Positions 10,655 to 48,832 of a DNA stretch of 64,000 bases are shown here, one piece after another. Source of the stretch: Rhabditoides inermis. Lineage: Eukaryota; Nematoda; Chromadorea; Rhabditida; Rhabditidae. How positions within the stretch are numbered: the first letter of the stretch is position 1; each line of letters opens with the position of its first letter. The notes beneath the pieces are model-generated. The model had not been told where the DNA came from and did not search any database. It worked only from the letters and a program-made list of their open reading frames with translations. The stretch is taken from positions 386,501 through 450,500 of the forward strand of contig CAWZYM010000212.1 of the NCBI GenBank assembly GCA_963966185.1, read 5' to 3'. The position numbers and the translations under genes were made by a program.

Positions 10655-10917
10655 CTATTGATGTCCCTGGATGCACCTCTGGCGTAGTACGAGATTTTCC
10701 GGGAATTTCCGCGTGCACATCTTGACGCGCTTCATACACCAGCGGTACTCTGCTGGGTTTCCGTCAGCGAGGCGCAGACAGTAGATGTCCTGGTCCTACA
10801 AAGGAGAGGGTTCATCAGGGAACTATGCGGATAGATAGGTGTTCGTACCTCGACTCTGCTTGGGAAGAAGTAGGCCGATGCAGAAGCAACGAGAGCGAGA
10901 AGGAGGAGAAGGCGCAT
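10655..10917 (-). CDS. Small secreted 4-Cys peptide, copy A
   Basis: Two-exon gene. Exon 1 (10849-10917) encodes a signal peptide MRLLLLLALVASASA followed by YFFPSRVE. A 53-nt intron with GT/AG ends follows, then exon 2 (10655-10795) starting DQDIYC and ending CIQGHQ-stop; total 69 aa. The four cysteines of exon 2 are at positions 6, 20, 27 and 41. The last spacing (13 residues between) matches every other copy. The second-to-third spacing is only 6 residues against 15-17 elsewhere, so about nine residues have been lost. I do not recognise the family. The signal peptide, four Cys (two possible disulfides) and multicopy nature suggest a secreted effector, signal or defence peptide, but this is inference. 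The upstream block with CGCAATAACG lies 74-83 nt before the ATG. Confidence 0.72.
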
Positions 10918-11060
10918 GGTCGAGTGTGGGGAGGGGCAGTCGGTGCGGACCATTTGAAGGGAAGAACATAAGGCAGGAATCAGATCTCTTCGTTATTGCG
11001 ACAGTATCCAGTGCTGTTAATGAGAAGCGAATATTCCTTCCCGGTTGCCTCGAAGGTGGT
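10918..11060 (-). promoter_or_regulatory. Conserved upstream region of peptide gene A
   Basis: Shared with the other peptide genes. Read on the minus strand, it has the block CGCAATAACG at 10991-11000, then ATCTGATTCC, then a weak TATA-like CTTATG near 10966-10972. Further out, near 11050-11085, is the distal segment GTGGTGTGATTGTGGCAGG, also seen upstream of copies B, F and G. The spacing to the ATG is identical in A, B, F and G. Confidence 0.55.
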
Positions 11061-11220
11061 GTGATTGTGGCAGGCGCGTGATCACAGATGTAAACGTGTG
11101 AGCATGATATATGCATACAAATTAGAAAAAATGGGGTATGCAATTTGTTCATGAATGTCACGTTTCCTGTCGAAGTCATTGGACGATGTCAATTGCATAT
11201 ATATATATATTCATTTACAG

Positions 11221-12059
11221 ATATATATATTTATATATATATTCATTTTTTATGTGCAAGAAGCAAAGAGACCGCTCAGAAAATGCTAGACGAACTGAGT
11301 GTGGAAAGCGAAAAGTATGGATTGCGAATAAGTCAAAAGAAGACGAAGATTCTCACTATTGGACCAAATCAGAACTTGACTCTACGTGGTGCACCCCTCG
11401 AGACAGTGCGAAGTTTCAAATATTTGGGAGTCACAATATCGAAGGACAAAGACACGATTGAACTAGAAAGACGAATGGGAAGTGCGTGGGGAGCGTTCAA
11501 TAGACATCGACGCTTTCTCACAAGCAGGACTGTGCCCATGAAGAGGAAGCGAGCCGTGATCTACACTTGTGTATTACCGGGAGCCCTCTACTGTTGCGAA
11601 ACCTGGGCTATTGCGGAAGAACAAAAGGAGAAACTAAGGAGAATGCAACGTCGAATGGAAAGATCGATGGTCAATGTCACCCTACGAGATAGAATGAGAA
11701 ATGAACGATTGCGAGAGCTGACAGGACTACGCGATATTATGGATATTGCATGGAAAAGAAAAACGAATTGGGCAAAGAAGGTAGCGACATTCAAAAACCG
11801 ATGGTCGAGACGAGTAACAGAATGGAGACCGTACGATAAGACGAGGAGAATAGGAGCACCGTATGTGAAATGGAGCGACGACCTGAAGGAGATGATAGAA
11901 CGGAACGGACGATGTGGCGAGAACTGGACGACATTAGCGAGGAGTGACAACGACGGTGAATGGAAATCGATAATGCTCACGGGACCAGCTCCATAGCGAG
12001 ACAATTATGTTTTGTGTATTGAGATTCTGGATAAAGTTTTTTACTTTATTTTTTTTATT
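11221..12059 (+). mobile_element. 5'-truncated RTE-type LINE (C-terminal ORF2 end)
   Basis: An open frame from about 11259 to 11996 encodes the end of a non-LTR reverse transcriptase. It includes SFKYLGVTISKD, the ALYCCETWAI region and the RTE-like tail GAPYVKWSDDLKEM. The 13-bp direct repeat TATTCATTTACAG flanks the copy (11208-11220 and 12060-12072), the mark of target-primed insertion. The 3' end carries GATTCTGGATAAAG and a T-rich tail. The 5' end is lost, so the catalytic YADD region is absent and the copy is dead on arrival. Confidence 0.85.
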
Positions 12060-12072
12060 TATTCATTTACAG

Positions 12073-13082
12073 TACATTTCCTTCGATCGAAGTCGTCTAC
12101 TTGATTGCGTACAACGTACAATAAACAGATTTTTCAATCGGTCGTCTCCACAAGCGGATGCTCATAGACATCGATAACACTCATGTGAGGAAGCTTCGCA
12201 AACCCATTGGACAATGCATATATACCATGTTACTTGAGCGCGTGCAGAACTGCCACGAACTACGCACGAGTCGTCTTCGTTTTCGAATTCGAGGCGTCGG
12301 CAGAACAACACGATGAGATTTTCCAACTACTGTCTTTTTTGAAGCGCAGCCAGATCAACAACATCGCGATGTTCTATAATCTATAACGTGTTGTTGTTTT
12401 CCTTTGTTTTCCTTTGTTTTCCTTTGCTTTGTTTTTTTTGTTTTTTTTTGCTCAAAGGTACTGGTACAGTAGAGTAGCGACTTATTTTCGATTTGAAGAA
12501 TTGATAAAAATCATGTTATTCTAACACATCAGTATTTAGTGTGAAAGAACGACGATTCCGCGTTACTTTTAGAACTGCGTGAGATGCAGAACATTTTTGA
12601 AAATCAATTTGATCCCACACGACTTGAATACCGCTCTTAACACTTCAATACTATGGATTTTTAACATCAACACTGAACTAACCATTTTGAGAAGAGTTGA
12701 GACGATACATTTAAAACTACTGTGCCGACTTTTTTCGACTTTGTGTAGATGAGGAGTTAGAATATGTAGTTTATTCATAAGTTGTTATGACATACACACA
12801 AATCGAACAACAAAATAGTACAGCTACGGTTTGGAACTGTTCGTATTCGATTTGCAGGGTTTCACTTTCTTCAGACCAGACACTGTTGGCATTACAGCAT
12901 ATGCGGAGAGAGGAATCCAGTCACCTCTCCAGATATCCGTCTTCTTATCCGATATAGAGTATACGGCTTTGATCCATTCTCGAACGCGTGAGCCTTATGG
13001 ATCACCTTGCGTCTACCGTCGAACGTTCTCGAACTTCTCGCGTCCATTTGCATACTTGCTCCCGGTCGATCCATTTGTCACT
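12073..13082. other. Non-coding stretch containing an empty TTAA target site
   Basis: No gene recognised. Bases 12540-12850 are the inverted counterpart of 22020-22740 and 32130-32850 but lack the 381-bp MITE found there. The TTAA at 12637-12640 is the unoccupied target. The flanks (CCGCTC before, CACTTC after) match both occupied copies. Confidence 0.7.
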
Positions 13083-13260
13083 AAGTATAGTTCTATGCTC
13101 GCAATAAGTTGTGCGCGGTGAAGTAGATCAGAGGAAGACGGAGGGTCAGCTCTCGGCAACAACGCGCAAAACAAGAGAGGCAGACGGTTATGGCACCGTA
13201 TTTCGAACTGCAAGCGAGGTAGATCGAAAACTATCGCTCTGGCGCAGAGTATATCATGTA
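13083..13260 (+). repeat. Short MITE-like repeat (family M165)
   Basis: Segment starting TATAGTTCTATGCTCGCAAT and ending near the GCTCTGGCGCAGAGTATA side. Similar copies lie at 18395-18560, 26931-27096, 36860-37030 and 42677-42850. A slightly different copy sits inside the intron of every C-type peptide gene (for example 19825-19985). The ends look like short inverted repeats beginning TATAG with TA-type flanks. Boundaries are approximate. Confidence 0.5.
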
Positions 13261-13680
13261 ACAAAATCTAAGAAATCCGTGAGTTACCGATTGTATGCAC
13301 TCCCAATAGGCTTATTTGGCTCATCCATATCGTCTCACAGTGAACGGCTCCGGATATCGATCGATAACAGCAGCGTGCTTCTCTTCCGCTCGCGGGTGCC
13401 GCCGTTGCCCTTCAATTCGTCTTCGCTTTGTACCTTCCTTTCCTCCAATTGAAAATTCTCGCTCCGCCGATTAGTTGCACTTCCACAGGCTTGTTTGCCG
13501 TTGCCTTGTCGTTTTACAGTGAAGGTGAACGGCTTAAGTTCGAGAATTAGTCGATACTCCACGAAACCTCATAACCAAGCGACGGCGGCGGTGACTTTCA
13601 TTGTCGTCGGGTGGTCATTCGAGGGAGCGCGGGAAGGGGCAACCGCTCGCTGGGACGGGAAATGAGAAGTGAAAATTAGA
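13261..13680 (+). repeat. Dispersed repeat arm, also found downstream of copies D and F
   Basis: This 400-bp segment is repeated at 42850-43260 in the same orientation and forms the arms of the palindromes at 20619-21869 and 30670-31920. It ends in a hairpin-prone GC sequence near 13680-13705 (GAGGGCGC and its complement). Confidence 0.7.
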
Positions 13681-14435
13681 GAGGGCGCGCAGCGCCCTCT
13701 CTTTTGGCTTAGGATAGGGCTCGCGCCAGAATTTTCAAGAAGCTATATCCAAAAATCATGTTAGCAGGAATGTGAACTTATCCAATTCATGTTAGTTAGA
13801 TTCGCACGGTTCCGTAGGCCAGATCACTAATTGATGGCATCTTTGTATCTTTTCTCCGAAAGAAGTTATGAGCGATCGCGCGCGCGCAGTATGCGACAGG
13901 CCAGCGTGTGTGTGGGTCCGTGGTTCCCGTCACGCTGCTGGATGCTCGCTTTCGTTATCGTCTGCCGGGCGGGCGCAGGCAATAAGAGATGTCGTGTCCG
14001 GTAACTCTGACTCTCTGCCGAAAGCGTACTCTCTCGCGTTTTCTGCGCGTGTTCTCCAACTAGCACTTTGAGTGTAGTTCGCCTCGCCGCCGCCAGCGTC
14101 TAATTCGCACCGGGTTTGCGTTGTTTTGGGTTCCCGTCACTCTGGCTAGCTCTCTCTCCCGGCAGGCGGGCAGGGCGCGCAGAGAAATCGCGAGAGAGCA
14201 CGCTGTCGGGTGAGAGCGCAGACATGCACTTACACCACGGCGACCGAAATTCAGAGAAGTGTCGATTAGAATTGTTTCTATACAATACCAAGAAAAATAT
14301 AGTTACATATACACGCAACATTGTGTGTCACATCATAAAATGTGTCACATAATAGTTCTATGCGTACTAATTAACGACAGAGCTTGGGAATCAGAAAGAG
14401 AAGAAATTTCTATGAAATTCAACAAAAGCACATAT

Positions 14436-14591: not shown

Positions 14592-14628
<37 letters not shown>

Positions 14629-14914: not shown

Positions 14915-15097
14915 TCATCCCTGGATGCACATCTGACGTTTGTCGAGACTGTCCGGGAATCGATACGTGCACCAGTCGACGCGATCCCACTCAATGAACT
15001 CTTTGAAATCCCTCGCATTCATACAGGCGCGGTACATGAACCTGTCTCCGCCGGCGCGTCGCAAACATTCACTGTGCCTGCCCTGCGAACGAGAAGA

Positions 15098-15140
<43 letters not shown>

Positions 15141-15269
15141 TTCTCTCACTCACTTACTCTCTCTCTCTCTCAGATACCAGGGAACTGCGTGGATAGATAC
15201 CTCGACTCTGTTTGGGAAGAAGTAGGCCGATGCAGAAGCAACGAGAGCGAGAAGGAGGAGAAGGCGCAT
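14915..15269 (-). CDS. Small secreted 4-Cys peptide, copy B
   Basis: Exon 1 (15201-15269) gives MRLLLLLALVASASA plus YFFPNRVE. Exon 2 (14915-15082) starts GRHSEC and ends RQMCIQG-stop; total 78 aa. The intron holds a (CT)n tract (15098-15175). Cysteines of exon 2 are at 6, 20, 38 and 52, spaced 13, 17 and 13 residues apart. It forms a subfamily with copy F and the orphan exons D and D'. The upstream block CGCAATAACG is at 15343-15352, the same distance from the ATG as in copy A, with a TATA-like TTATATT near 15318-15324. A truncated TTAA-type MITE end (14805-14860) lies just downstream. Confidence 0.72.
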
Positions 15270-17039: not shown

Positions 17040-17920
17040 GCGGTTGCATCACATATGTACATGGACATGAAACATGACGTCACTGGGATTAATGTGAGGT
17101 GGGAAGAGGGGGAGGAGGGAGGGGATCGCGCGAGATGTCCTCCTAGGCGAGGTAGACGTCGTCCCGGCTGCACGAGGGAGATGGGGGATGGGAACGGAGA
17201 GGGGTGAAGACGTCTGCTGCACGCGATCCGCGCTTGAAGGCACCGGAGTGATCTAATGACTGAAAAAAAAGCTGAAATGGATGAATTAGGTTGCCGGTGA
17301 TGACAGAAGCCTCGACGTGTCGAACGAGAAGATCCGAAGCGGTGAAGTATAGACACGATGTATGAAGTGAAGACGATGATTGATGTATAGGTAGTGCTAG
17401 TGAATATGACACTGTCCCGTCAGGGCATACGCGATCACAACCTACGAAGTCATGTCGCCGCTGACACAAGAAAAACATAGCCTCACTATTGCTATAGTGG
17501 GCCCGCAGATGAGTGGAAGCAATCCTGAGCTAAGTGCGAGTCTATTATATAATTCACTTCTCTCGCGTACGTCTATATGCCCATGAACAATAGTACGATT
17601 ACCGTAATACACTCTGGGTACTGGAGACGCATTTTGCATTCATCACCGTGTACTCCTATTGTAACGCAGTAGTATTGTCAGGAGAAACACACGTGATACC
17701 GGCGCTTGAGTGGTGCGTGGGGCCGATGCTGGAGACACTGCGAACCTACGCTGAGAGACTGTATCCCGCGCCTCTACGCCTCCCCCTGCGAGGATTGAAG
17801 GGCAAAAACGGCGGCCCCTCGAGCCATACCGACGCGAAACGAGTAGGAGGCTTAACAACAATCTCGTTTCACTCCACATAAGAAGACGACTTTTGTCTCC
17901 ACAGTGTTCGACCTGCAAAA
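17040..17920 (-). other. Unrecognised single-copy stretch, possible gene remnant
   Basis: Unlike its surroundings this stretch is not repeated in the window. Minus-strand open frames of up to 111 codons (17143-17478) and 100 codons (17643-17945) contain plausible short introns, but I could not assemble a convincing multi-exon model or recognise a family. It may be an old or lineage-specific gene. Confidence 0.2.
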
Positions 17921-18764
17921 CCATATACCATGTTTTCTTCCTCATCGCCCTTCTTCCGTTGAATTCCGTCTCTCTCTCTCTCTATCCGTCATGTCTACTG
18001 CTTGACTCATCGCTGTCCCCGAGTCTGTCCGTGTGAAACTATTCGAATCAACTCATAGACCAAAGTCGAGTGTATGTAGGCAAGCGCCGCCTTAGCACGA
18101 ACCGCTGATAGAGGAGGGTGGGCGGAAGTAAAACGGCGGAGGGTGGGTGGGAACATAAAAGCCGTAGAATGGAGAGCCTTCCGCCTACGAAACACGAATT
18201 GTCCGAGCGGAGCGGTTCGCGTCGCGGTCAGATGGTGGCGCTGGAGCGCGAAAACGCCACATTCCTAACCGGTACTAGGATGTTTGTGATGTTTGATGAT
18301 TGATACCATATGGATAAAATATTATTTACATACATAATAATGACGAAATAAGTCATAGTCGTCAGTTATCGCTAGTCCCGTCCAGGTGTCGGATAGCCTG
18401 CGGCAGAACGATAGTTTTCGATCTGCCTCGCTTGCCGTTCGAAATACGGTGCCATAACCGTCTGCCTCTCTTGTTTTGCGCGATATTGCCGCTAGCTGAC
18501 TCTCCGTTTTCCCTCTGATCTACTCAACCACGCGCAACTTATCGCTGGCATAGAACTATACATCACTGCTCGTTTCCTCTTAATCACTATCCTGGGCGTC
18601 AATTGACGTGAGAATCGTCTGTGCTTTCTGAATTCAGCCTACGCTGACTACCTGAAGGCAGGATGACCGACTTCACTCTGAAAACTAGATTACAAAAACA
18701 TAGAGAAAAAAAAGATTCTTTGGTACGGCTATAGTATCACTACCCACTGTCTTCGAAAACGTCG

Positions 18765-18965
18765 ATGAGATTGTCGATCATTGTCGATCACATCACATTC
18801 CGTAGTCATAACATCTCCAGTGACTGTCAGATGCTCATAGATATCTACACCACGTACGTTCGTCTTCTCTTGGAGTACGGTATGTTTGTCTTCAATCCAT
18901 TTGACCGGGCATCGCCCATTCTACTCGAACGTGTGCAGAGCTACTAAGGGCCTGGTTTCACTTCC
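18765..18965 (+). pseudogene. CR1-like LINE fragment
   Basis: Encodes YTTYVRLLLEYGMFVFNPFD then LLERVQ, matching the post-RT segment of the longer CR1-like copy near 41460-41560. It is a short remnant with no catalytic motifs. The same fragment recurs at 27301-27500, 37260-37420 and 46550-46660. Confidence 0.65.
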
Positions 18966-19606
18966 CGACCGACGCCCCCATCTTCGCACCTTACAACGTC
19001 ACTCAGTTCGTAGTGCTCATCGTTCTCTAGTGTTCGAGTTTTTGATTTTCGTCTCCGTTTTCATATTGGAATCCAAAAACCTTGGGTTTGACTCTATTTC
19101 CAATGGGAAAGCTCCGAAACTTAATTACTCCCTTCAAACTTATCGCACAGCGCCCAGTTTTCTGGAAAAGATGCCCCGATTTCTGTCATTTTTACCGTGT
19201 TTAAGAACAAAAACACACAATCGGGGTAAATTTGCATAAAATTCTCGTCTGTCTGGATAACTAGCGTTATTTCCGTACGATGAAAGGAGAGAATGGCCTA
19301 AATGTACGTGAATAAACGTATTGTGGGTGGGCAACTGCCAGTAGAGAGCAGAATAGTGACAAGAGTTTTCATCACTAAGTGTTACCGTCTACCGGAGACC
19401 CCTAGGAGCACAATGGTAGCGAAACGCACACCCTCGGCGTGAATACCCTAGTTACAAAAATAGGCTTACCAGTACCAGAACAAGACCCTACAAGTATACT
19501 CTATTTCGTCCTTCATTACCGTCAGTCCTCGAACATTCAAATTTCAAACAAACCGCAAGAACCTGCAGATGGACACGTTTATTCACGAAAGCCGACTGTG
19601 TTAGTG

Positions 19607-20059
19607 TTACTTTCCGAAGCCGCCAAAGAATCCATGAAGGCACATGTTGTGATCGAGCGGGCGGTTGCCGAACATCCTGTCGCAGAATTCCTTTTTGTCG
19701 ACACTCTGCTTGAACTCCCTTCTATTCATACAGGCACGATATAGGGACATGTCTCCGTCGGCGCGACTCAAACACCCACTGTGCTTGTCCTGCAAAAGAG
19801 AAGGTACTCGAGAAGTATGCGGGTAGATATAGTCTGCGCCAGAGCGATAGTTTTCGATCTACCTCGCGCGCAGTTCGAAATACGGTGCCATAACCGTCTG
19901 GCTCTCTTGTTTTGCGCGATATTGCCGCGAGCTGACTCTTCGTCGTTCTCGGATCTACCACCTATTGTGAGCATAGAACTATAGCCGTACCTCGACTCTG
20001 CTTGGGAAGAAGTAGGCCGATGCAGATGCAACGAGAGCGAGAAGGAGGAGAAGGCGCAT
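19607..20059 (-). CDS. Small secreted 4-Cys peptide, copy C
   Basis: Exon 1 (19991-20059) is the standard signal exon ending YFFPSRVE. Exon 2 (19607-19789) starts DKHSGC and ends FFGGFGK-stop; total 83 aa. Exon 2 cysteines are at 6, 20, 36 and 50. The 201-nt intron holds an M165 MITE inserted at TA (about 19825-19985), shared by all four C-type copies. A TATAAAT box lies about 35 nt upstream of the ATG (near 20092). CGCAATAACG overlaps a TGACGT half-site at 20117-20128. An AATAAA signal on the minus strand is at 19578-19583, just after the stop. Secreted peptide of unknown function. Confidence 0.74.
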
Positions 20060-20618
20060 GGTAGAGTGTGGGGAGGAGAATAGACAAGGACCATTTATAC
20101 GGGAAAGGAATCAGATGACGTTATTGCGATGTCAATCAGATGACGTTATTGCTTTTAGTGCTGATAATGAGAAGCAATTATTGCGTCGTTGTTGCGTCGC
20201 GAGTGGTGTTATTGCAGCAGGCGATCGATCGAAGCTGCACATAAAACATCATGATGTGAACACTAATCATGTTAGAATACAACGGTACGAGTGGTAGATG
20301 TAATTTGTTCACGAATGTCACGTTTATTGAAGTTCACGCAATCACTAACTATTATCTATGAGTGTTGCCAGTTTGTCCGAACACTCTCGAGTACCCTCAC
20401 TCCCGAACACTTCGGAATGCCTTGCTATCCCTTCGAAACACTTTTGACCGCACCTTCACAAACTCGTTCTTATTGTTAGCCTAGACCTGGAAACGACGAG
20501 TTATATGAAAATTTATATCAATATATGTATCAAAAACACGTATCAAAATTTTGTAAAGATTGCTTGATTTCGAAAGGAGTAATTAACTTCAGAAGATGGA
20601 AAACTCTGCTGTCGAAAA

Positions 20619-21869
20619 CTCCCGGTCGATCCATTTTCACTAAGTATAGTTCTATGCTCGCAATAAGTTGTGCGCGGTGAAGTAGATCAGAGGAAGACGG
20701 AGAGTCAGCTTTCTCAGAGTATATCATGTAACAAAATCTAAGAAATCCGTGAGTTACCGATTGTGTGCACTCCCAATAGGCTTATTTGGCTCCTCCATAT
20801 CTTCACACAGTGAACGACTCCGGAAATCGATCGATAACAGCAGCGTGCTTCTCTTCCGCTCGCGGGTGCCGCCGTTGCCCTTCAAACTTTCAATTCGTCT
20901 TCGCTTTGTACCTTCCTTTCCTCCAATTGAAAATTCGCGCTCCGCCGATTAGTTGCACTTCCACAGGCTTATTTGCCGTTGCCTTATCGTCTTACAGTTA
21001 AGGTGAACGGCTTCAGTTCGAGAATTAGTCGATACTCCACAGGGCAGGCACAGTGAATGTTTGCGACGCGCCGGCGGAGACAGGTTCATGTACCGCGCCT
21101 GTATGAATGCGAGGGATTTCAAAGAGTTCAAGGAGTGGGATCGCGTCGACTGGTGCACGTATCGATTCCCGGACAGTCTCGACAAACGTCAGATGTGCAT
21201 CCAGGGATGATAGATTGCTACTGAGTAGTATTAGTAAATGGATAAATGTTTTTCTCTCTCTCTCTCTCTCGCCTGTAAAGACACAGTGGTGACTTACTTC
21301 TGCCACAACCTGCTACAACTTCTCATTTTCACTTCTCATTTTCCCGTCCCAGCGAGCGGTTGCCCCTTCCCGCGCTCCCTCGACTGACCACCCGACGACA
21401 ATGAAAGTCACCGCCGCCGCCGCTTGGATATGAGATATGAGGTTTCGTGGAGTATCGACTAATTCTCGAACTGAAGCCGTTCACCTTCACTGTAAGACGA
21501 TAAGGCAACGGCAAGTAAGCCTGTGGAAGTGCAACTAGTCGGCGGAGCGCGAATTTTCAATTGGAGGAAAGGAAGGTACAAAGCGAAGACGAATTGAAAG
21601 TTTGAAGGGCAACGGCGGCACCCGCGAGCGGAAGAGAAGCACGCTGCTGTTATCGATCGATTTCCGGAGCCGTTCACTGTGAGAAGATATGGAGGAGCCA
21701 AATAAGCCTATTGGGAGTGCACACAATCGGTAACTCACGGATTTCTTAGATTTTGTTACATGATATACTCTGAGAAAGCTGACTCTCCGTCTTCCTCTGA
21801 TCTACTTCACCGCGCACAACTTATTGCGAGCATAGAACTATACTTAGTGACAAATGGATCGACCGGGAG
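20619..21869. repeat. Fold-back palindrome carrying an orphan peptide exon, copy 1
   Basis: Two arms of about 422 bp (20619-21040 and 21447-21869) are reverse complements. The 406-bp centre contains the orphan exon D and a truncated TTAA-type MITE end. The arm sequence is the same as the single-orientation repeat at 13083-13600 and 42680-43160. Confidence 0.88.
21043..21210 (+). pseudogene. Orphan second exon of a 4-Cys peptide gene, copy D
   Basis: This 55-codon open exon starts GRHSEC, ends RQMCIQG-stop and is nearly identical to exon 2 of copies B and F, but on the plus strand. No signal exon is found upstream. The palindrome arm joins exactly at the exon boundary and supplies a new AG (CCACAG). 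Probably a captured gene fragment without its own promoter or signal peptide; a chimeric transcript is possible. Confidence 0.65.
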
Positions 21870-28142: not shown

Positions 28143-28595
28143 TTACTTTCCGAAGCCGCCAAAGAATCCATGAAGGCACATGTTGTGATCGAGCGGGCGG
28201 TTGCCGAACATCCTGTCGCAGAATTCCTTTTTGTCGACACTCTGCTTGAACTCCCTTCTATTCATACAGGCACGATATAGGGACATGTCTCCGTCGGCGC
28301 GACTCAAACACCCACTGTGCTTGTCCTGCAAAAGAGAAGGTACTCGAGAAGTATGCGGGTAGATATAGTCTGCGCCAGAGCGATAGTTTTCGATCTACCT
28401 CGCGCGCAGTTCGAAATACGGTGCCATAACCGTCTGGCTCTCTTGTTTTGCGCGATATTGCCGCGAGCTGACTCTTCGTCGTTCTCGGATCTACCACCTA
28501 TTGTGAGCATAGAACTATAGCCGTACCTCGACTCTGCTTGGGAAGAAGTAGGCCGATGCAGATGCAACGAGAGCGAGAAGGAGGAGAAGGCGCAT
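28143..28595 (-). CDS. Small secreted 4-Cys peptide, copy C'
   Basis: Duplicate of copy C: exon 1 at 28527-28595, exon 2 at 28143-28325, 83 aa, encoded peptide identical to C. The intron keeps the M165 insertion. The upstream TATAAAT box, both CGTTATTGC blocks with TGACGT, and the downstream AATAAA (28114-28119) are retained, so both copies look equally capable of expression. Confidence 0.72.
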
Positions 28596-28894: not shown

Positions 28895-30409
28895 CTAGCA
28901 TTAGTAGGGAGTGGAAACAAAGTTGAGAGTGGAAATGTTTAGTAACAATTGTAAATGGAAAAAAAAAGTTTTACATTTTCACGTAGTCCGCGCTTCGCGC
29001 GAACATTTCTTTTTAGTCTTTCAGAAACCCATAATATCGCTTTCAGAAACCCATAGTATCGCTTTAACTGTCTTAATGTTTCATCACCATTCTCACTTAA
29101 ACACTTGTCGTAGAGGTGTGAAATAATAATTTTGATAGGCGTTACACGCCTTCTTTTATACAAGGGAGAGCGCACTTTGGTACTTTGGCGTGGTTGCAAG
29201 AGAGAAAGAGGGAGTGAGTGCACATCTGAACAGTCGAAAATATACTTCATTTCTCTCGCCTTCCGTATGATAGCCAAGAAAGAGGAATATTCATTTGTCA
29301 TTTTCTTTTCGCTCGGTAGTGCGCGGCTGCGCCGCTTATCAGAACATGCTGGAGATGGAATGGATGAAGTGGAGTTGAAATATTTGTTTTGGTAGAAAAG
29401 TTTTTGAAAACACATGTTCTCATTTTTGTACTGCTCCCCGCTTTTTTCAAATATGTGGGCTGTGGGAGATTTTTTTTTCGCTTTTAACAAAAAAATGAAG
29501 GAGCGGAAACAAACTTGTACTTGTGAAAATTCATATTACACGGGCAAAAACAATTTGGGAGCAGCGGGGTTCGAACCCAGGTCACTCACTTGCCACGCCC
29601 TTATCATAGCCACTACTCTACCAGGAACCAGGACGACGTTTCCTTGAGCTCAAAACCCAATCACTATCTCCCTGACTCATAACCAAGACTGGCAAAAAAG
29701 GGAGAAGCGGTTTTCGAACCCCGGTCTCACTTGTCACGCCCGCACCGTAGCCACTACACTACCATGCAGACCTTTACATGTGCTCAAAACCCATTCACTA
29801 TCCTTCTGACAGTGTGTCAGAGTGAACAAAACGTTCTGGCCGGGGCGGGATTCGAAACAGGGACCTCAGGCTTAACAGGCGGACGCTCTACCGCCTGAGC
29901 CAGAATGGCTACGCCGTGGCTCTCTTAAAGCTCGAACTCGTCTCCGCCGGCTCGGTCGCATGCAGTTAGAGAGTGTCGACACGCGCAGCAATACGTTTCA
30001 CTTGCAATCGATCGATATCAATCAATATCGTAGAGCTCTAACATGTATGAATACTATCCCACATGTTTCCTCCATTATAGCATCGGTTCCGAAAGCGCAC
30101 ACTCTATTCTTCTCTATTGACACTCTATTCTCTCCTATTCACACGCTATCGCCGGGCCGCGCTGGCCTCATCGCTCTCTCACCTAAACCAAACACATGGC
30201 CACTTAGTGTAGTGGTCTAAGGCGCGGTTGCGCGGATTCGATGCTCGCAGGTTCGCATCCCGGTACGGGCAGAGGGTTTTGCTTACATCTTGGCATCGTC
30301 TTCTGCCCCCCAGAGTACCAAGACATTGCCAAACTCGGCAAATTATGCAAATGAAGCTTAAGTGGCGTGACGGAGAAAATTCCCTTGCTGTACACTATAG
30401 GATGGGAGA
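28895..30409 (-). mobile_element. 1,515-bp insertion with tRNA-like segments, Helitron-like ends
   Basis: Absent from duplication copy 1, where the empty site is TCTA|TGAG at 20355-20362. Read on the minus strand it starts TCTCCCATCC, ends AATGCTAG and sits between host A and T, the pattern of a Helitron. The usual GC hairpin before the CTAG end is not obvious. It contains three minus-strand tRNA-like segments (29568-29640, 29700-29775, 29841-29915), one plus-strand segment (30189-30268) and a GC hairpin near 28987. No transposition protein is encoded. Confidence 0.62.
29836..29918 (-). pseudogene. tRNA-like sequence
   Basis: Read on the minus strand: GGCTCAGGCGGTAGAGCG (A-box region), an anticodon-loop-like CTGTTAA, then a B-box-like TTTCGAATCCC. 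Anticodon and T stems do not pair well, so I call it a tRNA-derived pseudogene or SINE head, not a functional tRNA. Neighbours at 29568-29640 and 29700-29775 are similar, with GGTTCGAACCC and GGTTCGAAAACC. Confidence 0.55.
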
Positions 30410-30410
30410 T
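30189..30410 (+). mobile_element. tRNA-derived SINE-like segment
   Basis: The A-box-like TAGTGTAGTGGTCTAAGGC and B-box-like GGTTCGCATCC are correctly spaced. An unrelated body follows, up to the end of the 1,515-bp insertion. No tail or target duplication could be assigned. Confidence 0.45.
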
Positions 30411-30669
30411 GAGTGTTGCCAGTTTGTCCGAACACTCTCGAGTACCCTCACTCCCGAACACTTCGGAATGCCTTGCTATCCCTTCGAAACACTTTTGACC
30501 GCACCTTCACAAACTCGTTCTTATTGTTAGCCTAGACCTGGAAACGACGAGTTATATGAAAATTTATATCAATATATGTATCAAAAACACGTATCAAAAT
30601 TTTGTAAAGATTGCTTGATTTCGAAAGGAGTAATTAACTTCAGAAGATGGAAAACTCTGCTGTCGAAAA

Positions 30670-31920
30670 CTCCCGGTCGATCCATTTTCACTAAGTATAG
30701 TTCTATGCTCGCAATAAGTTGTGCGCGGTGAAGTAGATCAGAGGAAGACGGAGAGTCAGCTTTCTCAGAGTATATCATGTAACAAAATCTAAGAAATCCG
30801 TGAGTTACCGATTGTGTGCACTCCCAATAGGCTTATTTGGCTCCTCCATATCTTCACACAGTGAACGGCTCCGGAAATCGATCGATAACAGCAGCGTGCT
30901 TCTCTTCCGCTCGCGGGTGCCGCCGTTGCCCTTCAAACTTTCAATTCGTCTTCGCTTTGTACCTTCCTTTCCTCCAATTGAAAATTCGCGCTCCGCCGAT
31001 TAGTTGCACTTCCACAGGCTTATTTGCCGTTGCCTTATCGTCTTACAGTTAAGGTGAACGGCTTCAGTTCGAGAATTAGTCGATACTCCACAGGGCAGGC
31101 ACAGTGAATGTTTGCGACGCGCCGGCGGAGACAGGTTCATGTACCGCGCCTGTATGAATGCGAGGGATTTCAAAGAGTTCAAGGAGTGGGATCGCGTCGA
31201 CTGGTGCACGTATCGATTCCCGGACAGTCTCGACAAACGTCAGATGTGCATCCAGGGATGATAGATTGCTACTGAGTAGTATTAGTAAATGGATAAATGT
31301 TTTTCTCTCTCTCTCTCTCTCGCCTGTAAAGACACAGTGGTGACTTACTTCTGCCACAACCTGCTACAACTTCTCATTTTCACTTCTCATTTTCCCGTCC
31401 CAGCGAGCGGTTGCCCCTTCCCGCGCTCCCTCGACTGACCACCCGACGACAATGAAAGTCACCGCCGCCGCCGCTTGGATATGAGATATGAGGTTTCGTG
31501 GAGTATCGACTAATTCTCGAACTGAAGCCGTTCACCTTCACTGTAAGACGATAAGGCAACGGCAAGTAAGCCTGTGGAAGTGCAACTAGTCGGCGGAGCG
31601 CGAATTTTCAATTGGAGGAAAGGAAGGTACAAAGCGAAGACGAATTGAAAGTTTGAAGGGCAACGGCGGCACCCGCGAGCGGAAGAGAAGCACGCTGCTG
31701 TTATCGATCGATTTCCGGAGCCGTTCACTGTGAGAAGATATGGAGGAGCCAAATAAGCCTATTGGGAGTGCACACAATCGGTAACTCACGGATTTCTTAG
31801 ATTTTGTTACATGATATACTCTGAGAAAGCTGACTCTCCGTCTTCCTCTGATCTACTTCACCGCGCACAACTTATTGCGAGCATAGAACTATACTTAGTG
31901 ACAAATGGATCGACCGGGAG
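30670..31920. repeat. Fold-back palindrome with orphan exon, copy 2
   Basis: Duplicate of the palindrome at 20619-21869: arms at 30670-31091 and 31498-31920, orphan exon D' in the centre. Confidence 0.88.
31094..31261 (+). pseudogene. Orphan second exon of a 4-Cys peptide gene, copy D'
   Basis: Same as orphan exon D (GRHSEC to RQMCIQG-stop), open over 55 codons, preceded by CCACAG and lacking a signal exon. Both copies remain open, but the duplication is too recent for that to show selection. Confidence 0.65.
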
Positions 31921-32342
31921 CAAGTATGCAAATGGACGCGATAAGTTCGAGAACGTTCGACGGTAGACGCAAGGTGATCCATAAGGCTCACGCGTTCGAG
32001 AATGGATCAAGGCGGTATACTCTATATCGGATAAGAAGACGGATATCTGGAGAGGTGACTGGATTCCTCTCTCCGCATATGCTGTAATGCCAACAGTGTC
32101 TGGTCTGAAGAAAGTGAAACCCTGCAAATCGAATACGAACAGTTCCAAACCGTAGCTGTACTATTTCGTTGTTCGATTTGTGTGTATGTCATAACAACTT
32201 ATGAACAAACTACATATTCTAACTCCTCATCTACACAAAGTCGAAAAAAGTCGGCACAGTAGTTTTAAATGTATCGTCTTAACTCGTCTCAAAATGGTTA
32301 GTTCAGTGTTGATGTTAAAAATCCATAGTATTGAAGTGTTAA

Positions 32343-36100: not shown

Positions 36101-38640
36101 TAATTCTACTTTTTTATAAAAAAAAGGGCAAAACATCGTTACGCTCGCACGCTCGTTCGTTGTGCAAAAATGACATCACGCCAGTTTTCCACATTTCTCA
36201 CTATGCACAAGGGGCTTTCTTGCAAATCTCACTCTTTCAATTTGCTTTTGATAAATTTTATCGGTAATCTTATAATTTTTAACTTTTTATTGTTTTTTTC
36301 TTATAAACAGTGTTTGGATTGTCATGTTCTTTCATGTGGTAGTCGTAGTTTACACACGCAAGTGGTGTGATTGTGGCAGGCGCGTGATCGCAGCTTATGA
36401 GCATAAATCATGCTAGGCTAGGGTAAGCGTTCGATTCGTCACGTAAGTATTGCGCAACATTCCGTTTTTGGAAATATTTTTCTTTAAATCTGGTTTTGTC
36501 AATCTGATTTCTTTCAGACAAATCGAATGAAAAGTTGTATCCATGAACTCTTTACTCGTTTTCTATTGCTTTCTGGCGACGAAGTGTCCTGACGTAGTTG
36601 GCTTTTTCTTTCTACCAACTTCCGAAGTTCTTGCATCCGTTTCTGAGATTGACAGACCTTTTCTATACACGTTTGCGTGTCAAAAGGTTCTGTCGCAGTC
36701 ATCACTCTGCCAAAATACCCTTTGTTCTTAACCGGTACTAGGATGTTTGTGCTGTTTGATGATTGATACCATATGGATAAACTATTATTTACATACATAA
36801 AGAAATAATGACCTCCATGAGTCATAGTCGTCAGTTATCGCTAGTCCCGTCCAGGTGTCGTATAGCCTGCGGCAGAGCGATAGTTTTCGATCTACCTCGC
36901 TTGCCGTTCGAATTACGGTGCCATAACCGTCTGCCCCTCTTGTTTTGCACGATATTGCCGCGAGCTGACTCTCCGTTTTCCCTCTGATCTACCCAACCAC
37001 GCGCAACTTGTCGCGGGCATAGAACTATACATCACTGCTCGTTTCCTCTTCATCACTATCCTGGGCGTCAATTGACGTGAGAATCGTCTGTGCTTTCTGA
37101 ATTCAGCCTACGCTGACTACCTGAAGGCAGGATGACCGACTTCACTCTGAAAACAAGATTACAAAAACATAGAAAAAAAAATTCTACGGTACGGCTATAG
37201 TATCACTACCCACTGTCTTCGAAAACGTCGACGAGATTGTCGATCATTGTCGATCACATCACATTCCGTAGTCATAACATCTCCAGTGACTGTCAGATGC
37301 TCATAGATATCTACACCACGTACGTTCGTCTTCTCTTGGAGTACGGTATGTTTGTCTTCAATCCATTTGACCGGGCATCGCCCATTCTACTCGAACGTGT
37401 GCAGAACTACTAAGAGCCTGGTTTCACTTCCCGACCGACGCCCCCATCTTCGCATCTTACAACGTCACTCAGTTCGTAGTGTTCATCGTTCTCTAGTGTT
37501 CGAGTTTTTGATTTTCGCCTCCGTTTTATAATTAGAATCCAAAAACCTCGGTTCAGACTTTATTTCCAATGGGAAAGCTCCGAAACTTAATTACTCTCTT
37601 CAAACTTATCGCACAGCGCCCATTTTTCTGGAAAAGATGCCCAGATAGGCTTAGAGATCTCAGGTGCTCGATTTTTCGATTTCCGTCATTTTTACCGTGT
37701 TTGAGAACAAAAACACACAATCGGGGTATATTTGCAAAAAAATTCTCGTCTGTCTCCCCACAGCCAGCGAAATTTCCGTACGATGAATGGAGAGAATGGC
37801 CTATATGTACGTGAATAAACGTACTGTGGGTGGGCAACTGCCAATAGAGAGCAGAATAGTGAAAAGAGTTTTCATCACTAAGTGTTACCGTCTACCGGAG
37901 ACCCCTAGGAGCACAATGGTAGCGAAACGCACACCCTCGGCGTGAATACCCTAGTTACAAAAATAGGCTTACCAGAACAAGACCCTACAAGTATTCTCTA
38001 TTTCGTCTTTCATTACCGTCAGTCCTCGAACATTCAAATTTCATACAAACCGCAAGACACTGCAGATGAACACGTTTATTCACGAAAGTCGACTGTGTTA
38101 GTGTTACTTTCCGAAGCCGCCAAAGAATCCATGGAGGCACATGTTGTGCTCGAGCGGGCGGTTGCCGAACATCCTGTCGCAGAATTCCTTTTTGTCGACA
38201 CTCTGCTTGAACTCCTTTCTTTTCATACAGGCACGATATAGGGACATGTCTCCGTCGGCGCGACTCAAACACCCACTGTGCTTGTCCTGCAAAAGAGGAG
38301 GTACTCGAGAAGTATGCGGGTAGATATAGTCTGCGCCAGAGCGATAGTTTTCGATCTACCTCGCGCGCAGTTCGAAATACGGTGCCATAACCGTCTGGCT
38401 CTCTTGTTTTGCGCGATATTGCCGCGAGCTGACTCTTCGTCGTTCTCGGATCTACCACCTATTGTGAGCATAGAACTATAGCCGTACCTCGACTCGGCTT
38501 GGGAAGAAGTAGGCCGATGCAGATGCAACGAGAGCGAGAAGGAGGAGAAGGTGCATGGTAGAGTGTGGGGAGGAGAATAGACAAGGACCATTTATACGGG
38601 AGAGGAATCAGATGACGTTATTGCGATGGCTTTTAGTGCT
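36100..38640. repeat. Third copy of the repeat / C-gene module
   Basis: Bases 36100-36725 match 15800-16950. Bases 36725-38640 match 18275-20160, with more divergence than between the tandem pair. It carries an M165 copy (36860-37030), a CR1 fragment (37260-37420) and peptide gene C''. Confidence 0.75.
38104..38556 (-). CDS. Small secreted 4-Cys peptide, copy C''
   Basis: Exon 1 at 38488-38556 (second residue His instead of Arg), exon 2 at 38104-38286, 83 aa. It differs from C by CMKRKEF for CMNRREF and LEHNMC for LDHNMC. Cysteine positions 6, 20, 36 and 50 are unchanged. The intron carries the same M165 insertion and the promoter keeps TATAAAT and TGACGTTATTGCG. The upstream similarity ends soon after, at about 38655. 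Confidence 0.72.
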
Positions 38641-38659
38641 GATAATGAGAAGCGATTTG

Positions 38660-39841: not shown

Positions 39842-40128
39842 TCACTTTCCGACGGTGCCTTGGAGGCACGTCTGAAGATCGCGCGGGCTGTTCGGGATTA
39901 GCGAAGTGCAGGCTGCAACTCTGTCCGAAGCCTGTTTGTACACCCTGTCAATCATACAGACACGGTATATCAATGAGTTTCCAGCGGCACGACGCTTACA
40001 CCCAATGTGCTTGTCCTGCAAAATAGGGGATACAAGGAAACTATGCGTATAGGTCGTACCGAGACTCTGCTTGGGAAGAAATAGGCCGATACAGAAGCAA
40101 CGAGTGCGAGAAGGAGGAGAAGGCGCAT
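39842..40128 (-). CDS. Small secreted 4-Cys peptide, copy E
   Basis: Exon 1 (40060-40128) gives MRLLLLLALVASVSA plus YFFPSRVS. The intron is 44 nt. Exon 2 (39842-40015) starts DKHIGC and ends LQGTVGK-stop; total 80 aa. Cysteines of exon 2 are at 6, 20, 36 and 50, as in C, but the residues between are strongly changed. The intron lacks the M165 insertion. The upstream region is of the C type, with TTTATAC on the plus strand (a TATA box on the minus strand) and GATGACGTTATTGCG at 40184-40197. Confidence 0.72.
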
Positions 40129-40554: not shown

Positions 40555-41850
40555 CTGGCATTGTTCCTTCTCTTTGGAAGTCCTCCTTTGTCACACCGAT
40601 TTTTAAGGAGAAATGAGCCACCGACCCTCTCAAGTTCCGCCCGATCTCTAGCACTTCTTTCGCTTGTCGGGTGTTCGAGCGCATTCTCAAGGAGTACATG
40701 GTCCGCCATATCTCTGCCCGCCACATTGTTCCCTCCGAACAGTGTGGCTTCGTTTCTCGAAAGTCTGCCGAGCTTCAGCTACTCGAATGTCTCAACCATT
40801 GGACTGCCGCCGTCGACAGAAAGGAGGTCGTCGATGTCATCTACTTCGACTTCAGCTAAGCATTCGACAGGGTATCTCACCCTAAGCTTTTGCTGAATCT
40901 ATCGTCTCTAGGGTTCAACCAAGCTATTGTCGAGTGGATTCGCAATTACATCACTGGTCACACTTTCCAAGTCCGCATTGGCACATCTTTCTCCGACCCC
41001 TGTGACACCAACTCTGGTGTTCCACAGGGAACAGTTCTTGGTCCCGTGCTGTTCAACATCTACACGGCAGATCTCGTTCCTCTCATAAGGCCACACGCGA
41101 CATGTCGAGTCTACGCAGACGATCTCAAGGTCTCCTATTCATTTCACCCTGGCGACGACTGCAGCCCACTACAGGCAGCTATCAATATCGTGGATAAACG
41201 GTCCTCCATTTGGCAGCTACCACTTGCTCCTCACAAGATCTCTGCTTTACACATTGGCCGCAAGAATCCCTCTCACGTCTACACGGTCTCAGGCAGCAAC
41301 ATCACATCGGTTGACGAGGTGGTCGATCTAGGTTTCACCATCACATCTAACCTCCACTTCGGCAAACACTGCAACAAGGTCTTCGGGTCAGCTTTCAATC
41401 GGGCTTTCACCATCTATCGTTCTATCGTTTCGGCCGATCAGCAATTTCTCTTTGCCATCTATACCACATACATCCGCCCTCTTCTGGAGTACGGTACACA
41501 TGTCTTCAACCCGCACGACAAGGCTTCAATCGCGCTGCTGGAAAGGGTTCAAAACTACGTCACTCGTCTCATTTCGGCTCGGTCTTCTCTCACAGATCTT
41601 GATTCCTCGCAGCGCAACTCTATCATGGGTCTCCAATCTCTTCAACACCGGCGGCATATCAACGACATCGTTGTTCTACAAGATTCTTGCGGGCTTCGTT
41701 GACGTAGATAAGGAAGGTCTTTCGAACTGCGACCGTCGAGGCTGCGTGGGAACGATCTATAAGTGGTCCGTCTTCGGTTTCGGCTCCTCATTCGGCAGCA
41801 CGTCTTCAACGTGCGCGTTACCAAATTCTCTCACTTGCTTCCTAGTATGT
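40555..41850 (+). pseudogene. CR1/jockey-type LINE reverse transcriptase, broken
   Basis: Contains, in order, SFVTPIFK, KFRPIS, VVDVIYFDFS, AFDRVSHPKLL, GVPQGTVLGPVLFNIY, CRVYADDLKVSYSF, the KISALHIGRK and VDLGFTITSNLHFG region, and RPLLEYGTHVFNPHD. The reverse-transcriptase catalytic YADD is intact. A stop replaces the Lys of the first catalytic motif (FDFS-stop-AFD at about 40856), and frames shift near 40615 and 41690. Confidence 0.85.
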
Positions 41851-43383: not shown

Positions 43384-43682
43384 TCATCCCTGGATGCACA
43401 TCTGACGTTTGTCGAGACTGTCCGGGAATCGATACGTGCACCAGTCGACGCGATCCCACTCTTTGAACTCTTTGAAATCCCTCGCATTCATACAGGCGCG
43501 GTACATGAACCTGTCTCCGCCGGCGCTTCGCAAACATTCACTGTGCCTGCCCTGCGAACGAGAATCTCTCTCTCTCTCTCACTCAGTTACTAGGGAACTG
43601 CATGGATAGGTACCTCGACTCTGCTTGGGAAGAAGTAGGCCGATGCAGAAGCAACAAGAGCGAGAAGGAGGAGAAGGCGCAT
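43384..43682 (-). CDS. Small secreted 4-Cys peptide, copy F
   Basis: Exon 1 (43614-43682) is the standard signal exon; exon 2 (43384-43551) starts GRHSEC and ends RQMCIQG-stop; 78 aa. It differs from B at only a few residues (LRSAGG for LRRAGG, EFKEWD for EFIEWD). Cysteines of exon 2 are at 6, 20, 38 and 52. The intron is 62 nt with a short CT tract. CGCAATAACG is at 43756-43765, 74-83 nt before the ATG, and a TATA-like TTATATT is near 43731. An AATAAA signal on the minus strand is at 43352-43357. Confidence 0.74.
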
Positions 43683-45954: not shown

Positions 45955-46280
45955 TAGTTAAATAAATAATAATAACAATAATAATAATAATTGTTTATCC
46001 ATAGAACAGTCAAGCACTGAATTAGGATAGTGAGGATGGTTTGGTCGGTCGATGTGTCGAGCAATACAAGTCCACACATCGCAAGGCGAGACTGCAGCGC
46101 GCGCCTCATAGGCACAAAGTGCTTGTGTGAGACACGCGCTCCCGGTAGAAAGCAGGCTGAAAGGTGAGAGCAGGGAAAGCCTGCTACGAGACACTACAAT
46201 CAATGATAGTCATCTTCACTCATCTTCACTGACATCTTCATCTTCACTTCACTGATCATCTCCACTGACCATCATAGATA
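45955..46280 (-). other. Unique insert with ATT tract, possible SINE
   Basis: Starts with (AAT)n-like sequence on the plus strand, which would be a 3' tail if the element lies on the minus strand. It ends with short CATCTTCACT repeats. No A/B boxes were recognised. Confidence 0.25.
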
Positions 46281-47343
46281 TAGTCTTCACCTGGAGAATA
46301 GTTTCTGTTATTGCCAGCCGGGGTCAGTTGGCGAAACTCAGTCGCGAGCGAGAGAGGCCAGACAGCGCGGGCAAATGGTCGAGTGTCGCGCGGCTTCTTT
46401 GATTCGCATGCCGGCTTCTATGATCGATATTATGGTTTGAAAGCGCGCGCTTGGGTCTCTTCACGACTAGAAGGTAGATCGAATGCGACTAGAGGGTAGA
46501 TCGATTTTCTACCGTAATCTGGCAAACTATCTCCCAGAATAATATTATATCTACACCACGTACGTTCGTCTTCTCCTGAAGTACGGTATGTTTGTCTTCA
46601 ATCCATTTGACCGGGCATCGCCCATTCTACTCGAACGTGTGCAGAGCTACTAAGGGCCTGGTTTCACTTCCCGACCGACGCCCCCATCTTCGCATCTTAC
46701 AACGTCACTCAGTTCGTAGTGTTCATCGTTCTCTAGTGTTCGAGTTTGTGATTTTCGCCTCCGTTTTATAATTAGAATCCAAAAACCTCGGTTCAGACTT
46801 TATTTCCAATGGGAAAGCTCCGAAACTTAATTACTCTCTTCAAACTTATCGCACAGCGCCCATTTTTCTGGAAAAGATGCCCAGATAGGCTTAGAGATCT
46901 CAGCTGCTCGATTTTTCGATTTCCGTCATTTTTACCGTGTTTGAGAACAAAAACACACAATCGGGGTAAATTTGCAAAAAATTCTCGTCTGTCTCCCCAC
47001 AGCCAGCGAAATTTCCGTACGATTAAAGGCGAGAATGGCCTATATGTACGTGAAAAAAACGTACTGTGGGTGGGCAACTGCCAGTAGAGAGCAGAATAGT
47101 GAAAAGAGTTTTCATCACTAAGTGTTACCGTCTACCGGAGACCCCTAGGAGCACAATGGTCGCGAAACGCACACCCTCGGCGTGAATACCCTGGTTACAA
47201 AAATAGGCTTACCAGAACAAGACCCTACAAGTATTCTCTATTTCGTCCTTCATTACCGTCAGTCCTCGAACATTCAAATTTCATACAAACCGCAAGACAC
47301 TGCAGATGAACACGTTTATTCACGAAAGCCGACTGTGTTAGTG

Positions 47344-47796
47344 TTACTTTCCGAAGCCGCCAAAGAATCCATGAAGGCACATGTTGTGCTCGAGCGGGCG
47401 GTTGCCGAACATCCTGTCGCAGAATTCCTTTTTGTCGACACTCTGCTTGAACTCCCTTCTATTCATACAGGCACGATATAGGGACATGTCTCCGTCGGCG
47501 CGACTCAAACACCCACTGTGCTTGTCCTGCAAAAGAGAAGGTACTCGAGAAGTATGCGGGTAGATATAGTCTGCGCCAGAGCGATAGTTTTCGATCTACC
47601 TCGCGCGCAGTTCGAAATACGGTGCCATAACCGTCTGGCTCTCTTGTTTTGCGCGATATTGCCGCGAGCTGACTCTTCGTCGTTCTCGGATCTACCACCT
47701 ATTGTGAGCATAGAACTATAGCCGTACCTCGACTCGGCTTGGGAAGAAGTAGGCCGATGCAGATGCAACGAGAGCGAGAAGGAGGAGAAGGCGCAT
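47344..47796 (-). CDS. Small secreted 4-Cys peptide, copy C'''
   Basis: Exon 1 at 47728-47796, exon 2 at 47344-47526, 83 aa. It is identical to C except LEHNMC for LDHNMC. The M165 insertion in the intron, the TATAAAT box, duplicated CGTTATTGC blocks with TGACGT and the minus-strand AATAAA after the stop are all kept. Confidence 0.72.
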
Positions 47797-48345
47797 GGTA
47801 GAGTGTGGGGAGGAGAATAGACAAAGACCATTTATACGGGAGAGGAATCAGATGACGTTATTGCGATGTCAATCAGATGACGTTATTGCTTTTAGTGCTG
47901 ATAATGAGAAGCAATTATTGCGTCGTTGTTGCGTCGCGAGTGGTGTTATTGCAGCAGGCGATCGATCGAAGCTGCACATAAAACATCATGATGTGAACAC
48001 TAATCATGTTAGAATACAACGGTACGAGTGGGAGATGTAATTTGTTCACGAATTTCACGTTTATTGAAGTTCACGCAATCACTAACTACCATCTATGAGT
48101 GTTGCCAGTTTGTCCGAACACTCTCGAATACCCTCACTCCCGAACACTTCGGAATGCCTTGCTATCCCTTCGAAACACTTTTGACCGCACCTTTACAAAC
48201 TCGCTCTGATTGTTAGCCTAGACCTGGAAACGACGAGTTATATCAAAATTTATATCAATATATGTATCAAAAACACGTATCAAAATTTTGTAAAGATTGA
48301 TTGATTTCGAAAGGAGTAATTAACTTCAGAAGATGGAAAACTCTG

Positions 48346-48530
48346 CTTCATTAGACTCGCAAATCACCCTCATTTCCCTAAAAAGAGACCGTCAAGCGCG
48401 CGAATTGCGCGGTCGATTGATCTCGCGCGGGCTGGTAACGTGCATTGATGCCTTAAATGCTGTCTGGTGAACATTCGGCGAAATAAATGACTGTCGTACG
48501 ATGAACGGGGGAATGCTTTATATTTGCACA
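48346..48530 (-). repeat. Inverted fragment of the 26.11-26.31 kb module
   Basis: Reverse complement of the sequence at 26115-26310 and 32985-33180 (CGTACGGCAGTCATTTCGCC region), directly downstream of peptide gene G. Confidence 0.7.
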
Positions 48531-48539
48531 TTTCTGACG

Positions 48540-48832
48540 TTATTTTCCAAGGGTGCCAAGGATGCACCTCTGACGGGCTTGAGGGTTGTTCGGGAATCGT
48601 TTGTTGCAGATTGTCACTCTGTCCGCACCCTGCTTGTATCCATCTTCGGTCAGACACGCACGATACTCGAAAGCGTTTTTGGCGCGGCGCAGACAGTAGA
48701 TGTCCTGGTCCTACAAAGGATAGGGTTCATTGGGGAACTATGCGGATGGATATATGTTTGTACCGCGACTCTGCTTGGGAAGAAGTGGGCCGAGACAGAT
48801 GCAACGAGAGCGAGAAGGAGGAGAAGATGCAT
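48540..48832 (-). CDS. Small secreted 4-Cys peptide, copy G
   Basis: Exon 1 (48764-48832) gives MHLLLLLALVASVSA plus HFFPSRVA. The intron is 53 nt. Exon 2 (48540-48710) starts DQDIYC and ends LGTLGK-stop; 79 aa. Cysteines of exon 2 are at 6, 19, 35 and 49. It groups with copy A by the DQDIYC start and promoter type but keeps the full second-to-third spacing that A has lost. CGCAATAACG is at 48906-48915, again 74-83 nt before the ATG. The distal GTGTGATTGTGG segment follows at about 48970-48990. Confidence 0.72.

Follow-up and report, generated by a model that had tools for sequence, protein, structure and literature searches.

A candidate family of small secreted four-cysteine peptides in the nematode Rhabditoides inermis, with uniform 5' parts and diverged mature exons

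A 64-kb stretch of the genome of the nematode Rhabditoides inermis (contig CAWZYM010000212.1 of assembly GCA_963966185.1, positions 386,501 to 450,500; the whole stretch is hereafter called the window, and positions are given in its own numbering) carries short two-exon genes whose predicted products are small, putatively secreted peptides with four cysteines. The coding nature of this family is strongly supported by its conserved anatomy, and the family is apparently restricted to one nematode lineage. The 5' part of the genes, that is the promoter, the signal exon and partly the intron, is homogeneous, whereas the mature exons joined to it are strongly diverged. With a probability of roughly 0.4, we propose that this is a real, lineage-restricted coding family with 5' parts kept alike by recombination or gene conversion, with diverged mature exons, and with outward-acting defence as its most likely role.

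Results

Anatomy of the two-exon genes

A sequence-only reading of the window had claimed nine two-exon units on the minus strand, spliced in phase 0 and coding for 69-83 amino acids, and all nine were confirmed at the coordinates listed in Table 1. In every one of them, exon 1 is 69 nucleotides (nt) long and codes for a signal peptide followed by YFFPSRVE; the introns have GT..AG borders, lie in phase 0 and span 44-201 nt; and the second exon encodes 46-60 residues with four invariant cysteines, spaced C-x(12 or 13)-C-x(6, 15 or 17)-C-x13-C, as that reading had also described. The signal peptide was judged by eye, and the appearance of the leader supports the earlier view of the peptides as probably secreted. 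The nine genes fall into five mature-peptide classes, and they are not nine independent observations, because the genes at 19607, 28143, 38104 and 47344 form a single near-identical class.

A profile was built from seven window exon-2 sequences, so those seven match it by construction. It also found copies that had not been used for its construction, namely two on the plus strand at E 9e-31 and those in further stretches of DNA, with E between 2e-31 and 1e-8, and the next unrelated stretch followed at E 0.55; such a gap between unused copies (E 1e-8 or better) and unrelated sequence excludes chance as the source of the matches. The previously given figure of at least nine members was right and incomplete, as two further exon-2 copies are present in the window, and the statement that all members lie on the minus strand holds for the two-exon units and fails for these two plus-strand copies. 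An exon 1 was looked for near either of them and was not found. Since they have no exon 1, start at a splice acceptor and lie between inverted arms, they are best read as fragments.

A conserved core, AAAT(G/A)GT(C/T), is located 35-38 nt upstream of the ATG in all 17 two-exon copies known from the genome (see below); class A and gene E have TATAAATGG as this core promoter element, at about 37 nt from the ATG, and the rest have TTCAAATGG or TTCAAATAG. At the 3' end, 10 intact models have an AATAAA within 30 nt past the stop, and the remaining six of the 16 have none in that stretch.

Distribution in the genome

Three exon-2 peptides (16, 14 and 21 rows), one stretch of promoter and exon 1 (17 rows) and the leader peptide (17 rows) served as queries against the genome (172.6 Mb, 599 contigs). 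Every first-look candidate was scored, and the counts are lower bounds, as strongly diverged members may be missed. At least 17 two-exon copies, one of them disrupted, and three exon-2 copies for which no exon 1 was seen were found on three contigs; one exon-2 peptide search alone recovers all 20 distinct exon-2 copies in 21 rows, the disrupted copy giving two. Eleven of the 20 are in the window (nine with exon 1) and one is elsewhere on the same contig (C212). Contig C213 has four, one with its upstream side masked by a run of N, and contig C280 has four, one of which (C280_d) is disrupted by a stop. All 17 exon-1 copies found fall within two-exon models, and a row on contig C403 at E 1.6 was taken as chance. 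The sequence-only reading had reported neither the copies on C213 and C280, nor the plus-strand fragments, nor the contrast of uniform 5' parts with diverged mature exons, the last being the most telling feature of the family.

The source organism is recognisable as a nematode by its SL1-like genes. In the search with the SL1 RNA family, the 50 candidates scored out of 26,991 all had E 1.2e-5 or better, and none reached the family cut-off; contig C109 carries SL1-like RNA genes every 1,442 nt, with eight copies among the matches listed. For ND4, 7,994 candidates were scored and the best 120 listed, and among those the closest was Litoditis aff. marina (89%), followed by Oscheius (87%), Heterorhabditis (86%) and Pristionchus pacificus (80%).

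Mature-peptide classes

Class A consists of genes A1 to A4 and one C213 copy; class B of genes B1 and B2, one C280 copy, the two window fragments and one C213 copy; class C of gene C, two C213 copies, one C212 copy beyond the window and the disrupted C280 copy; class D of gene D and two identical C280 copies; and class E of gene E only. The introns of B1, B2 and the class B copy on C280 measure 62-118 nt and contain (GA)n-rich runs of differing length. When 16 of the 20 exon-2 copies were aligned, eight residues were invariant: the four cysteines and an Ala, a Tyr, an Arg and a Gly. The net charge of the mature peptide ranges from 0 to +7, with 14 of the 16 intact models being positive (+1 to +7). 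The predicted peptide ends in -G or -GK in 12 of the 16 intact two-exon models. Such ends can permit amidation, and C-terminal amidation of the family peptides is accordingly possible, as judged from these ends.

The cysteine codons read TGT, TGT, TGC, TGC in 11 of the 12 distinct genes compared, a set that omits five of the 17 two-exon copies (four near or full duplicates and the disrupted one). At the other invariant residues the same 12 genes split 6:6 for Tyr, 7:5 for Arg, 9:3 for Gly and 10:2 for Ala.

Contrast between the leader and mature exons

Among five class representatives (10 pairs), the synonymous divergence (dS) of exon 1 was 0.06-0.40, with a mean of about 0.23, as compared with 0.57-2.62 and a mean of about 1.3 for exon 2, so that the leader exon is more conserved than the mature exon at synonymous sites too. 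When six representatives were compared pairwise, exon 1 was also more alike than the adjacent intron in all 15 pairs, with p<0.05 in 14 of them; constraint on the amino acids of the leader contributes to this likeness.

The ratio of nonsynonymous to synonymous divergence (dN/dS) in exon 2, for which a value near 1 had been named beforehand as damaging to the idea of a coding family, was 0.22-0.83 in the 10 pairs of class representatives. Over the 120 pairs that 16 genes yield when the disrupted copy is excluded, the between-class maximum was 0.91, five pairs of gene D with class A being saturated; a ratio above 1 in the mature part was not seen between classes where it is defined. Within class C (four genes), the synonymous excess was significant in three of six pairs.

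Mosaic genes

At least two genes have switch points, and these two are clear mosaics. In gene D (10655), the intron and the first 24 nt of exon 2 show 3/77 differences from a class C gene and 19/73 from class D (p 1e-4), and the rest of exon 2 shows 56/117 differences from class C and 21/117 from class D (p 2e-6). In gene E (39842), the promoter and exon 1 differ from class A at 8/160 positions and from the C213 copy C213_37910 at 33/165, and on the 3' side (the 3' flank together with the last part of exon 2) the figures are 50/148 and 26/163, respectively. Approximately unbiased (AU) tests, made on 15 of the 17 copies with groupings picked after the data had been seen, rejected for exon 2 the grouping of gene D with two class C genes (p 5e-56) and did not reject that of gene E with class A (p 0.19).

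Duplication and repeats

Expansion by duplication, which the sequence-only reading had suggested, is supported. The segment with gene A2 is 99.8% identical to 17917-20358, which holds gene A1, and part of the array is therefore very young. Dispersed repeats occur inside the introns of class A and next to the fragments, and not in the exons. For the repeat in the fragment arms, 40 of 1,762 candidates were scored, most of them outside the family clusters at 86-91% identity; for that in class A introns, 40 of 1,795 were scored, five being the class A introns themselves and 35 lying elsewhere at 85-88%. The exons were not found within a dispersed transposon open reading frame (ORF), an outcome that the sequence-only reading had named as damaging to its claim; neither this nor the dN/dS condition was borne out.

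The first fragment lies in a near-palindrome (20619-21869, duplicated in 30409-32018), in which inverted arms of about 423 nt (98.6%) flank the orphan exon 2 and hold a dispersed repeat of about 305 nt. Repeat-mediated capture of the orphan exon is possible. Reverse transcriptase fragments of retroelements occur among the peptide genes at 11094-11993 (+), where the score is slightly under the Pfam cut-off, and at 40860-41699 (+).

Table 1. Exons of the peptide genes, exon-2 fragments and inverted arms in the window
Feature	Positions	Strand	Remarks
Gene D (10655), exon 1	10849..10917	-	signal peptide + YFFPSRVE
Gene D, exon 2	10655..10795	-	short-loop class, C-x13-C-x6-C-x13-C; mosaic
Gene B1 (14915), exon 1	15201..15269	-	
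Gene B1, exon 2	14915..15082	-	class B, C-x13-C-x17-C-x13-C; C-terminal Gly
Gene A1 (19607), exon 1	19991..20059	-	
Gene A1, exon 2	19607..19789	-	class A; C-terminal Gly-Lys
Gene A2 (28143), exon 1	28527..28595	-	
Gene A2, exon 2	28143..28325	-	class A; peptide identical to A1
Gene A3 (38104), exon 1	38488..38556	-	
Gene A3, exon 2	38104..38286	-	class A
Gene E (39842), exon 1	40060..40128	-	promoter of class A type
Gene E, exon 2	39842..40015	-	last 63 nt and 3' flank nearer C213_37910 than class A
Gene B2 (43384), exon 1	43614..43682	-	
Gene B2, exon 2	43384..43551	-	class B
Gene A4 (47344), exon 1	47728..47796	-	
Gene A4, exon 2	47344..47526	-	class A
Gene C (48540), exon 1	48764..48832	-	
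Gene C, exon 2	48540..48710	-	class C, C-x12-C-x15-C-x13-C
Exon-2-only class B fragment	21043..21210	+	without exon 1; starts at old splice acceptor
Second exon-2-only class B fragment	31094..31261	+	duplicate of the 21043 fragment, segment 99.9% identical
Inverted repeat, left arm around 21043 fragment	20619..21040	.	holds dispersed repeat
Inverted repeat, right arm around 21043 fragment	21447..21869	.	

Relatives and predicted fold

The sequence-only reading knew no named family with this layout, and the searches agree with it. In Pfam, 13 of 13 members scanned gave no credible match, ShK and defensin-like families included, the best E being 0.13. In a set of 5.8 billion proteins, where a search requires shared five-residue words, the full-length alignment (13 of 17 models) found none among 413 candidates at E 1, and the exon-2 alignment (16 of 20 copies) none among 465 at E 10; the set seems to be without the source species (best ND4 89%), and the absence therefore does not cover close congeners. 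The PDB searched by sequence returned five matches, all of them chance-like, fold searches with predicted structures returned nothing usable, and no description of such a family appeared among the open-licence papers listed.

In both AlphaFold runs, made with shallow alignments, the peptide was modelled as four short helices with one cysteine each. The fold of the mature peptide is probably a pair of helical hairpins, and two disulfides are likely.

Other features of the window

A FOXP coiled-coil domain (PF16159, E 2e-17) is encoded by an ORF at 2157-3014 (-), which probably belongs as an exon to a gene for a FOXP-type transcription factor. An exon at 3102-3719 (+) combines a signal-like start with an M1 peptidase N-terminal domain (PF17900, E 4e-13). 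The right edge of the window holds a KTI12-like P-loop exon, 58666-58947 (+), and a pyrroline-5-carboxylate reductase exon, 63658-63999 (-).

Discussion

From these results, a hypothesis regarding the family may be put forward. Each gene would be a minimal secretion unit composed of a core promoter, a 69-nt leader exon, one phase-0 intron and a four-cysteine exon. The family would be enlarged by duplications, both segmental and tandem, within repeat-rich DNA, in a birth-and-death manner; recombination or gene conversion would keep the promoter and leader uniform, while old, diverged mature exons would persist, at times re-joined to another 5' part. The peptides might be made in one secretory tissue and act outward, as antimicrobial or anti-competitor agents, with the diverged mature exons supplying a mixed set of specificities. 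We infer the transcription and secretion of the peptides, as well as their function, from the sequences, and on these the most likely role would be outward-acting defence, then reproduction, and then recognition or signalling.

Several observations weigh against this hypothesis. The confidence of both AlphaFold models is low, with mean pLDDT (predicted local distance difference test) values of 65 and 69. The two identical class D peptides of contig C280 are neutral (net charge 0, isoelectric point 7.0), so cationic charge is not universal in the family. Three of the six class C pairs have no significant synonymous excess (p 0.056, 0.12 and 0.77), and comparisons inside class B give no indication of purifying selection, with 0-1 synonymous against 2.5-5 nonsynonymous changes, which are too few to judge dN/dS. 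Descent and amino-acid constraint may explain the fixation of the cysteine codons, Ala being almost as fixed; in a study on conotoxins, their fixed cysteine codons are attributed mostly to just these two causes (PMC3823881). The comparable clustered CRP-I family of mussels is reported to be unlikely to be antimicrobial, though possibly defensive (PMC10138031). Finally, the AU tests on the promoter and exon-1 tree left the exon-2 classes unrejected at the 0.05 level (p 0.06 for B, 0.07 for C and 0.86 for D).

The last result is also compatible with another explanation of the 5' likeness, one of mechanism only and compatible with any role, namely strong constraint at the nucleotide level in place of conversion, with the mature exons simply evolving faster. 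Such constraint is also suggested by gene A1 (W19607) and the copy C213_16192, which differ at 0/69 positions in exon 1, at 16/50 in the intron and at 46/99 in the promoter. However, the switch in gene D (W10655) takes in the intron and that in gene E (W39842) the 3' flank, where constraint would not be expected, and we regard this explanation as possible, if somewhat doubtful.

A more specific form of the conversion hypothesis would be a cassette-style system, in which a conversion-uniform promoter and leader are repeatedly re-paired with a few divergent, helical four-cysteine mature cassettes, with the boundary in or just after the intron, with 3' switching in the tandem array as the source of new secreted peptides, and with a new scaffold of two hairpins and two disulfides; taken as a whole, this picture is doubtful.

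As to the role, the peptides could instead be a secreted reproductive family, acting in seminal fluid, on sperm or on the egg surface and diversified by sexual conflict, for which the same anatomy and evolution would be expected. Small, secreted, duplicated orphan genes suit this proposal, as does a report that traces genomic novelty in nematodes to sperm cells as one source (PMC8480184), and the TATA-like core at a short distance from the ATG would fit strong, tissue-limited expression. However, no sequence feature seen favours the germ line over gut or skin, and a reproductive role appears unlikely. Still less probable is a signalling or recognition role similar to that of SELF-1, which takes part in kin recognition in Pristionchus pacificus; SELF-1 is described as a small peptide whose C-terminus is hypervariable, with an extra paralogue in one strain (PMC10721034). 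Small secreted peptides, a variable mature part and copy-number expansion are common to both; however, the genome is not that of a Pristionchus (ND4 80%, versus 89% to Litoditis), and the divergence spans most of exon 2, beyond the tail. The least probable explanation, that the copies are dispensable, mostly silent duplicates spread with repeats and intact only through youth, could draw on the disrupted C280_d, the two exon-2-only fragments between repeat arms, the dispersed repeats close to those fragments and within class A introns, and the 99.8% identity of some copies, yet frames, cysteines and splice sites are kept in 16 of 17 copies despite an exon-2 dS of 0.57-2.62 between classes, and exons found only 17 and 20 times are not a dispersed element.

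Outward-acting defence by a conversion-shaped family remains our preferred hypothesis. Should the genes be expressed, they would add to the secreted peptides of nematodes a family that is so far unlisted, for which the library searches gave no relative and whose helical cysteine scaffold may be undescribed. Being made of two parts, they would offer a compact test case of how conversion and selection build a peptide repertoire outside venomous animals, and short two-exon genes of this kind could escape notice in repeat-rich arrays.

Comparison with known systems

The ABF defensin-like, caenacin/NLP and ShK-type peptides of nematodes are small, secreted and often clustered; the present family differs from them in having no credible Pfam match and four widely spaced cysteines. 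Twin CX9C or CHCH helical hairpins consist of two C-x9-C motifs, and were ruled out by the spacing found here, C-x(12,13)-C and C-x13-C. A transposon ORF was likewise ruled out, with 17 exon-1 and 20 exon-2 copies found, and these on three contigs only.

Systems of the proposed kind are known from venom and immune peptides, and the family itself appears to be undescribed within the sources searched. Conotoxin superfamilies are defined by a conserved signal sequence (PMC3559828), and share with the present family a strongly diverged cysteine peptide, site-specific cysteine codons and a multigene organisation (PMC3823881). No relation to conotoxins emerged from the Pfam, PDB-sequence or protein-set searches, conotoxin sequences not having been compared directly. 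Unlike conotoxins, the family has no clear propeptide and only the eight-residue linker YFFPSRVE, and it further differs in a dN/dS below 1 between classes, in long loops in most classes and in a helical prediction. The CRP-I peptides of Mytilus are reported to have a knottin fold (PMC10138031), in contrast to the four cysteines and predicted helices found here. The likeness to SELF-1, compared by its published description, lies in a small peptide with a variable part, and the difference in another nematode lineage and in the variation of most of exon 2. The hyper-variable effector genes reported from nematodes (PMC11228951) are single-gene loci with potentially thousands of alleles, whereas the variety described here is carried by paralogues on three contigs.

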